Below are positions 19,643 through 21,673 of a stretch of DNA of 43,355 bases, one piece after another. The notes beneath the pieces were generated by a model, which made no database searches, was not told the origin of the DNA, and worked only from the letters and a program-made list of their open reading frames with translations. A program made the translations under genes and the position numbers. This DNA comes from Chloroflexota bacterium (lineage in GTDB: Bacteria; Chloroflexota; Dormibacteria; Dormibacterales; Dormibacteraceae), in NCBI GenBank assembly GCA_005882115.1, contig VBEG01000047.1, positions 1-43,355 of the forward strand, read 5' to 3'. How positions within the stretch are numbered: position 1 is the stretch's first letter; every line of letters starts with the position of its first letter.

Positions 19643-20647
19643 ATGTCGCGGGTCGTCGTGATCGGAGGCGGGGTCATCGGCTGCGCCGCCGCCGAGCGTC
19701 TGACGCTCGACCACCACGAGGTCACCCTCTTCGAACGTGACCAGCTGGGTGCGCACGCCTCAGGTGCCGCCGCCGGTGAGCTGAGCCCCTCGGTCCTGGA
19801 CTCGGACAACCAGGCCCTAGCCATGTTTCCGGAGGTCGTGGCCAGGATCGAGAAGGACAGCAGCCTGAATGTCGAGTACCGCACCCAGCAGGGCCTGAGG
19901 CCCGCATTCACGCCGCAAGAAGCCGAGCTACTCAAGGCTGGGGAGGGACGCTGGCTGGACGCAAGCGAGTGTCGGCAAGCCGAGCCGGCGCTGAGCTCCG
20001 ACGTGTTGGGCGCGTTGCTGCTCGAGCACGCGCACCTCACACCGCCGCGATTCGTGCGAGCCCTTGCTCGAGCGGCCGCCGTTCGCGGTGCCGCTATACG
20101 CGAGGGAACGCCGGCCATCGGTTTCGCGATCGAAGACCACCAGGTCCGGGGCGTCACCACGTCGAGGGAGACGATCGACGCCGATTGGGTCGTCGTCGCC
20201 GCGGGCCCTTGGACACGCGAAGTCGCATCCACCGCGGGTGTCGACATCGATGTCCGCCCGCAGCGCGGCCAACTTGTCGCGTTGGATCCGGGATCCACAG
20301 TGCTCCGGGGCAGCGTCTTCTGGTCTAACGGTTACCTGGTGCCCAAGGGCGACGGCACGATCATCGCGGGAGGCACCGAGGAAGACGCGGGATTCGATGA
20401 CCGGCCGACGGTCGAGGGCATCGCGTCGCTCCTGACGTTCGCGCAGAAGCTCGTGCCGGCTCTGGCGACGGCGAGTCTGCAGCGCGTGTGGGCGGGGCTG
20501 CGACCGCTGACCGGCGATGGAAGACCGATCGTCGCGATCAGCGAGGTCGGCAACCTCATCGTGGCCACGGGTCATCACCGCAAGGGGATCCTGCTGGCGC
20601 CGCTCGCCGCGGAGCAGGTAGCGGAGCTGATCAAGGGCACTAGATAA
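19643..20647 (+). CDS. thiO: FAD-dependent amino acid oxidase, glycine oxidase ThiO-like
   Basis: The product is 334 residues. The dinucleotide-binding motif VVVIGGGVIGCAAAERL opens the protein, followed by VTLFERDQLGAHASGAAAGELSP, the DAO-type FAD contact ADWVVVAAGPWTREVA, RPQRGQLVAL, and the C-terminal RVWAGLRPLTGDGRPIVAIS and ATGHHRKGILLAP. Length and these motifs match ThiO, which oxidises glycine to the imine used in thiazole synthesis, but related D-amino acid oxidases are hard to exclude. ATG 19643 lacks a Shine-Dalgarno site; TATCTT lies 6 bases upstream, suggesting a leaderless message. Divergent from imuA, sharing the LexA-box region. Confidence 0.8.
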   Translation: MSRVVVIGGGVIGCAAAERLTLDHHEVTLFERDQLGAHASGAAAGELSPSVLDSDNQALAMFPEVVARIEKDSSLNVEYRTQQGLRPAFTPQEAELLKAGEGRWLDASECRQAEPALSSDVLGALLLEHAHLTPPRFVRALARAAAVRGAAIREGTPAIGFAIEDHQVRGVTTSRETIDADWVVVAAGPWTREVASTAGVDIDVRPQRGQLVALDPGSTVLRGSVFWSNGYLVPKGDGTIIAGGTEEDAGFDDRPTVEGIASLLTFAQKLVPALATASLQRVWAGLRPLTGDGRPIVAISEVGNLIVATGHHRKGILLAPLAAEQVAELIKGTR

Positions 20648-20654
20648 ACAAAGG

Positions 20655-20678
20655 GCCGGGGCTCCACAGAACCCCGGC
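20655..20678. terminator. bidirectional terminator between oxidase and lysine-rich gene
   Basis: GCCGGGG and CCCCGGC form a 7-bp perfect stem (extended by inner pairs). On the minus strand it is followed by CCTTTGTTT, a U-rich tail that fits termination of the lysine-rich gene; the plus side has no U-tract. Confidence 0.65.
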
Positions 20679-20715
20679 GCGTAACGGACTTACGAAATGA
20701 CTGAAGAGAAGTGTC

Positions 20716-20787
20716 TTACTTCTTCTTCGAGGTCTTCTTGGCGGCCTTCTTGGCCGGCTTCTTGGCAGCCTTCTTCTTAGCCATCAT
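20716..20787 (-). CDS. 23-residue lysine-rich micro-protein, histone H1-like
   Basis: From ATG 20787 (a second ATG follows at once) to TAA 20716 the product has only 23 residues, of which 12 are Lys and 6 are Ala, built on KKAAKKPAKKAAKK-type repeats like the basic tails of H1-like and HU-like proteins. A very strong ribosome binding site, AAGGAGG, stands 6 nt before the first ATG, and a hairpin with a U-rich tail follows the stop, so this is a convincing though tiny gene. It would bind nucleic acid by charge. It may be translated together with the short ORF upstream, whose stop overlaps its ATG. Confidence 0.75.
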   Translation of the reverse strand: MMAKKKAAKKPAKKAAKKTSKKK

Positions 20788-21026
20788 CTATTACCTCCTT
20801 CTCCTAAAGATATGGACCCGATAGGTTCGATCGGTTTGGCGGGTTCCATGTGGTGGTTAGACGTGGTCAGGATGTCTCCTACACGCACCTCCTCTGCAAC
20901 CCCACGGGCTTCGCCACGGACCCTCATTGATAAGGATTCCGAGACGTTGGCGGTTTGTCGAAATGGTCCGCTTTCTCGCGTCGGGTCCGTTGCCTCTGTG
21001 GTGGCAACCACGAGTCGCATCGCCAT
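20784..21026 (-). CDS. short ORF with DsrE-like N-terminus
   Basis: From ATG 21026 the product is 80 residues. Its N-terminus LVVATTEATDPTRESGPF aligns with IVAATGPTDPTRASVPF of the DsrE-family gene at 40900, with 10 identities over a 19-residue stretch, and a beta-strand ending in GEA follows where the other has GDA. The rest, EEVRVGDILTTSNHHMEP and onward, does not match. A TTGACG-N18-TATCAC promoter ends about 10 bases before the ATG. The TGA overlaps the start of the lysine-rich gene. It may be a shortened relative, a decayed gene or a chance ORF within a long 5' leader. Confidence 0.35.
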   Translation of the reverse strand: MAMRLVVATTEATDPTRESGPFRQTANVSESLSMRVRGEARGVAEEVRVGDILTTSNHHMEPAKPIEPIGSISLGEGGNR

Positions 21027-21036
21027 ACAAGGTGTT

Positions 21037-21066
21037 GTGATACTCGATGAACCCCACTCACGTCAA
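21037..21066 (-). promoter_or_regulatory. promoter for the lysine-rich micro-gene unit
   Basis: On the minus strand, TTGACG (21061-21066) and TATCAC (21037-21042) are separated by 18 bp, giving a start near 21030. The -35 end overlaps an 8-bp inverted repeat, CAACCCTC/GAGGGTTG (21065-21099), with eight consecutive T residues in its spacer, a possible operator. Confidence 0.5.
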
Positions 21067-21169
21067 CCCTCGTGAAGATTTTTTTTCCGAGAGGGTTGTG
21101 GAAATTTCTGCGGATGTCGTCGTGATGACGACGATGATCGACGTCTTCAAGACTGCGACGATAGACATC

Positions 21170-21673
21170 ATGCGAGTCGTCCTCGGACATGGAGCATCTG
21201 GCACCGCGGCGTTGATGAAACCTTACGTCGTGGGTTTCAAACGACGAGGAATCGATGCCATCGCGGTCGATCTTCCTCGCGGTGTGGCGGAGAAAGCAGT
21301 GCCTGTCTTCATCAAGACCTCGGGTCGAGGACATGAGGTCATCGGTGGTGGTCAATCCTTCGGTGGAAGGGTCGCGAGCATGGCCGCGGTCGAGGCAGAC
21401 TTCGGCGGTCTGATCCTTTTTTCATATCCGCTGCACCGTCCGGGCTTCCCCGATCAGCTCCGTACGGAGCACTGGTCTCAGATTCGTTGCCCGACTCTAT
21501 TTCTCAGCGGTGATCGCGACCCGTTCGCGCGCCTGGACCTGCTGAAAGAGAAGATCAAGCTGATCCCAGGCGCGCGCCTCGAGGTGTTTAAGGGCCAGGG
21601 CCATGGTTTGCTCGCGGTTCTCGACCAGGCACTCGATATCGCAGCCGCCTTCACAAAAGAAAACCTCAAGTGA
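21170..21673 (+). CDS. alpha/beta hydrolase, TEX30/KANL3-like
   Basis: The product is 167 residues from ATG 21170, chosen because RVVLGHGASGTAALMKPYVV is the usual family beginning; the open frame reaches back to 21047 but that part overlaps promoter-like sequence and is not conserved-looking. The core shows the oxyanion motif GHGA, nucleophile elbow GGQSFGGRVAS, FSYPLHRPGFPDQLRTEHW, the acid loop FLSGDRDPFARLDLL and catalytic His in KGQGHG. Substrate is unknown. No Shine-Dalgarno site is visible. Its stop overlaps the GTG of the next hydrolase (GTGA), implying one operon. Confidence 0.78.
   Translation: MRVVLGHGASGTAALMKPYVVGFKRRGIDAIAVDLPRGVAEKAVPVFIKTSGRGHEVIGGGQSFGGRVASMAAVEADFGGLILFSYPLHRPGFPDQLRTEHWSQIRCPTLFLSGDRDPFARLDLLKEKIKLIPGARLEVFKGQGHGLLAVLDQALDIAAAFTKENLK

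Follow-up and report, generated by a model that had tools for sequence, protein, structure and literature searches.

The minus strand of the window analyzed here (the whole 43,355-nucleotide stretch of DNA under study) carries a micro-gene for a lysine- and alanine-rich peptide of 22 to 23 residues, and the conservation of its reading frame makes it close to certain that this is a real, conserved protein-coding gene. By analogy with known DNA-binding proteins, we favor, with moderate confidence, the reading that the product is a free polycation resembling a histone H1 tail, which would bind nucleic acid and be made from a transcription unit of its own. Our findings suggest that a histone H1-type tail can form an entire bacterial gene that is conserved across genera, here with a soil bacterium as the source. 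A second Chloroflexota class has like peptides. Even so, no Pfam or NCBIfam model matches the peptide, and open reading frames of this size are usually missed by gene finders. An earlier note on this DNA had proposed the micro-gene, and its conservation is borne out; the note made no mention of the leader, the locus, the extra copies, the second class, or the HU context described below.

Conservation of the micro-gene

The coding region and its ribosome-binding site lie as follows.

20716..20787, minus strand: micro-gene for a 22-23 aa Lys/Ala-rich peptide; conserved frame, pN/pS 0.18
20794..20800, minus strand: Shine-Dalgarno site AAGGAGG; AGGAGG in 51 of 58 distinct relatives

The product is (M)MAKKKAAKKPAKKAAKKTSKKK, and the full 23-residue form reads MMAKKKAAKKPAKKAAKKTSKKK before the stop, which bears out the count of 12 lysines in 23 residues given in the earlier note. 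The strong Shine-Dalgarno site claimed there is also present (20800-20794), 6 nt ahead of the first ATG and 9 nt ahead of the second. Translation probably starts at the second ATG (20784, giving 22 aa) rather than at 20787, because the first Met is substituted in two orthologs (L007 and L008).

Of the 42 genomes in the Dormibacteria family, 29 have an ortholog with the Shine-Dalgarno site, frame, and stop, as counted with a pattern of Shine-Dalgarno site, start, and KKKxxKK codons, and the peptide occurs in 15 of the 17 genomes of its genus as well as in related genera. The frame and the ribosome site, whose lack of conservation in relatives the earlier note held would speak against the gene, are thus both conserved across 29 genomes. 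Apart from these genomes and those of a second class described below, nothing matched in a phylum-wide sample of 301 genomes, and of 41 genomes collected by way of named loci, a large share being Acidobacteria, the remaining 39 gave no match either. A search of a plasmid collection with the region returned no match, and the peptide had none in Pfam and NCBIfam up to E 1, a comparison in which a 23-residue low-complexity query could hardly score.

The frame of the micro-gene is under purifying selection, with a pN/pS of 0.18, whereas the two alternative frames give 1.6 and 9.0 (Nei-Gojobori counts, 22 sequences). All four Ala codons are in use across the relatives while the Ala residue itself is retained; the loci behind this comparison were partly collected by peptide patterns, and the Lys columns are therefore no independent evidence. 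We considered that so short and simple a sequence could be a functionless, low-complexity open frame arisen by chance. This is almost certainly wrong, given that the Shine-Dalgarno site, frame, stop, and terminator are conserved in 29 genomes, that purifying selection is confined to the micro-gene frame, and that a backwards control pattern had zero matches in every genome listed.

Locus and transcription unit

The locus is syntenic in most of the 29 carrier genomes, with glycan genes and a pair of hydrolase genes to one side and an unnamed gene, a DinB-type polymerase gene, and dnaE on the other. The window is contig 81 of a metagenome assembly of Dormibacteria type (Chloroflexota), whose DnaE protein shares 82-91% identity with its counterparts in the nearest Chloroflexi and Dormibacteraeota MAGs. 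The neighbors and the putative transcription signals are the following.

19643..20647, plus strand: convergent neighbor, FAD-dependent oxidoreductase (context only)
20646..20678, minus strand: intrinsic terminator; stem invariant in relatives, U-rich tail overlapping the oxidoreductase stop codon
21037..21042, minus strand: putative -10 element TATCAC; conserved in the alignment, absent from the consensus-scan calls
21061..21066, minus strand: putative -35 element TTGACG; near-invariant across relatives
21079..21087, minus strand: A-tract upstream of the -35 element, possible UP element; A-run conserved in the alignment
21047..21673, plus strand: divergent neighbor, alpha/beta hydrolase, listed for context; translation probably begins downstream of 21047

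The earlier note had described a U-tailed hairpin after the stop, and we found one 3' of the micro-gene stop, with a GC-rich stem of 10 bp (20678-20655) and the U-rich tail CCTTTGTTTA. Its claim of a good upstream promoter held in part: a scan of 20600-21130 for the sigma-70 consensus called no near-consensus promoter, but a promoter-like element (TTGACG-18-TATCAC, preceded by an A-tract, 21066-21037) lies about 250 nt upstream and is retained in nearly all relatives. From the position of this element, the 5' end of the transcript is probably near 21030. We infer that the micro-gene is expressed, and in our proposal it would be transcribed alone from the conserved promoter, with its own hairpin ending the message. 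The oxidoreductase gene was not found at the loci of several relatives in which the micro-gene is still there.

An attenuator leader peptide was ruled out, because the terminator follows the micro-gene and the next gene is convergent, which leaves no co-directional downstream gene. In each of two relatives (G004, contigs C14 and C17; G005, contigs C25 and C39), two contigs carry the micro-gene no more than a few hundred bases from an end, perhaps because the assembly broke a single locus in two or because there are two copies.

A conserved leader RNA

Between the putative promoter and the Shine-Dalgarno site lies a conserved leader with several predicted helices.

20788..21030, minus strand: conserved 5' leader of about 240 nt; 5' end placed from the promoter position
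20989..21008, minus strand: hairpin P1 (GUUGCC / GGCAAC); 2 pairs changed on both sides
20981..20988, minus strand: long-range helix P2, 5' strand GGACCCGA; 95% of cells paired, mostly invariant
20912..20946, minus strand: hairpin P3; 3 pairs changed on both sides
20814..20821, minus strand: long-range helix P2, 3' strand UCGGGUCC; 13 nt ahead of the Shine-Dalgarno site

A DNA search placed the identity of the leader at 73-93% across several genera where most of it aligns. The search with the leader only and the search with the peptide pattern returned the identical set of 29 genomes, and therefore the leader and the peptide travel together. The leader is single-copy in its own genome, where no second copy was found. 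The middle is absent in some relatives, with the 5' hairpins and the 3' part retained. The window's version of the RNA folds better than its shuffles (z -3.0). Hairpins P1 and P3 together hold 5 pairs changed on both sides, compared to a shuffle mean of 1.6 and with 0 of 500 shuffles as high, and their pairing falls from 97% to about 40% when the partners are slid by 1-3 columns; the controls are lenient, given that the structure came from the same sequences and that these are related. Helix P2 shows no double changes as aligned and, because it is nearly invariant, its existence is only suggested. Structured mRNA leaders in Rfam share the layout of a conserved, folded 5' region ahead of a single gene, but none of those families matches this one: against Rfam 15, there was no match at the gathering threshold, and relaxed settings gave weak, sub-threshold matches to unrelated families. 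We regard the leader as a candidate for a new RNA family, and its role is probably to tune the stability or translation of the mRNA.

An 80-codon open reading frame beginning MAMRLVVATTEATDPTR fills the leader (21026-20784, minus strand), and its stop overlaps the start of the micro-gene. We considered that this frame could be translated from a leaderless message and coupled to the micro-gene through the overlap of its stop with the micro-gene start (ATGATG). The ATG of this upstream frame comes some 10 nt past the -10 element, the frame stays open in many relatives, and in several of them its stop overlaps the micro-gene start. Still, both the frame and its end vary between relatives, and in codons 1-17, 44 of 200 column shuffles were equal or lower, with no coding signature once more relatives were included, which makes translation of this frame very unlikely. 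The leader was accordingly rejected as coding sequence; its pN/pS over codons 1-17 went from 0.46 early on to 0.67 with the expanded set, which is ordinary compared to column shuffles.

Copies without the leader

Tandem second copies of the micro-gene were found in two genomes, one encoding 27 aa from a TTG start (L154) and the other 22 aa (L145). Each has its own Shine-Dalgarno site and terminator, and the long leader is absent from both. In a second class of Chloroflexota, peptides of 16-20 aa of the form M[PA]AKKKAAKK[STA]... (e.g., MPAKKKAAKKS...) are encoded in 14 genomes, all of one family, with Chloroflexi bacterium RIFCSPLOWO2_02_FULL_71_16 among the carriers; these micro-genes have a short leader and a GGAGGTGA-type Shine-Dalgarno site. 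In one paralog type of this class, a promoter-like site (TTGACAT) is present and the terminator hairpin is conserved. The other type follows immediately on an upstream reading frame, which may be a small helix-turn-helix gene, and has no promoter-like site of its own (L173, L175, L176, L184, L186, L187, L189, L190, L193, L195, L199, and L201). At such short length, shared ancestry of the micro-genes of the two classes cannot be told from convergence.

These copies bear on the possibility that the transcript acts chiefly as a structured regulatory RNA, either a dual-function RNA or a novel riboswitch, with the peptide as a secondary output under its control. The high identity of the leader where most of it aligns, the shared set of genomes, the double changes in P1 and P3, and the folding score are all consistent with such an RNA. 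We nonetheless hold it to be quite unlikely, given that the tandem copies and the second class retain the peptide, Shine-Dalgarno site, and terminator without the leader, and that for a structure taken from the same sequences, in which P2 is without double changes, kinship alone can beat shuffles. The Shine-Dalgarno site, peptide, and terminator persist in shortened leaders, in the tandem copies, and in the other class, and therefore the peptide is the constant part.

Proposed function of the peptide

Across 34 distinct peptides, the composition is 53% K, 28% A, and 4% P, with the AAKK/AKKA repeats of H1-like tails. The earlier note had likened the product to a free histone H1-like tail; the composition and repeat type fit this comparison, and the DNA binding it implies would follow by analogy. 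The tails of HupB and HbhA of Mycobacterium and of AlgP and PhaF of Pseudomonas likewise carry Lys/Ala/Pro-rich AKKA, AAKK, or KPAA repeats, and DNA binding has been reported or proposed for the tails, with tails of the AKKA/AAKK and KPAA kinds binding DNA in HupB, HbhA, and AlgP (PMC10665949, PMC9239181). In those proteins, however, the tail extends from a folded or helical domain within a larger protein, whereas here a tail of 16-24 aa is the whole protein. Chlamydial Hc1 and Hc2 and other small bacterial H1-like proteins are likewise free-standing, basic, and Lys-rich, but Hc2 is 165-237 aa long (PMC2848022). We found no description of such free micro-peptides in these lineages in the literature covered, which included few subscription journals.

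We propose that the product is a free, presumably unstructured Lys/Ala polycation of about 23 residues that would act like a detached histone H1/HupB/AlgP tail, binding the phosphates of DNA or RNA regardless of sequence and helping to compact or screen the nucleic acid, with the conserved folded leader tuning mRNA stability or translation. Nucleic acid binding is suggested here because of the composition and the resemblance to the AKKA/KPAA tails known to bind DNA. Against this proposal, a plain abundant peptide would not need so unusually long a conserved leader, and polycations also bind polyphosphate and ribosomes. The peptide could instead be a basic micro-protein associated with ribosomes or rRNA, or a binder of polyphosphate granules, given that short Lys-rich peptides bind any polyanion, that AlgP works at polyphosphate granules with its H1-like tail (PMC9239181), and that ribosomal protein RplV also has an AKKA motif (PMC10665949). 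We consider this somewhat unlikely, since the patchy presence of the micro-gene within one family speaks against a core ribosomal part and no polyphosphate genes were seen among the neighbors examined.

HU context and longer relatives

In 41 of the family's 42 genomes, several of these 41 being more than 94% complete, HU (PF00216) was undetected; among the 68 genomes in the rest of the class, it was found in 62. The eleven genomes tested for actinobacterial-type IHF likewise gave no detection. The micro-peptide itself has no Pfam match as an HU/IHF protein (PF00216) and is too short for that 90-position domain. The absence of HU makes a nucleoid role for the H1 tail-like peptide attractive, if unproven. 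The link is suggestive only, because the loss of HU may be a single event in the family and some genera are also without the micro-gene. Simple replacement of HU by the micro-peptide is not supported: in several genera of the family neither was found by these searches, and in the second class of Chloroflexota both are present. If the peptide packs DNA, it raises the questions of the minimum size of a chromatin protein and of what substitutes for HU. We rate as unlikely the reading that such a peptide, which at 16-24 residues would be the smallest free-standing chromatin protein of any bacterium, is a main DNA-packing factor in a lineage that has lost HU, at a level governed by a structured leader RNA not described before.

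In a third family of the Dormibacteria class (L205-L211), we observed H1-like proteins of 151-166 aa, rich in Lys, Arg, Ala, and Thr, which start like the micro-peptide (e.g., MPAKKKSSKK).
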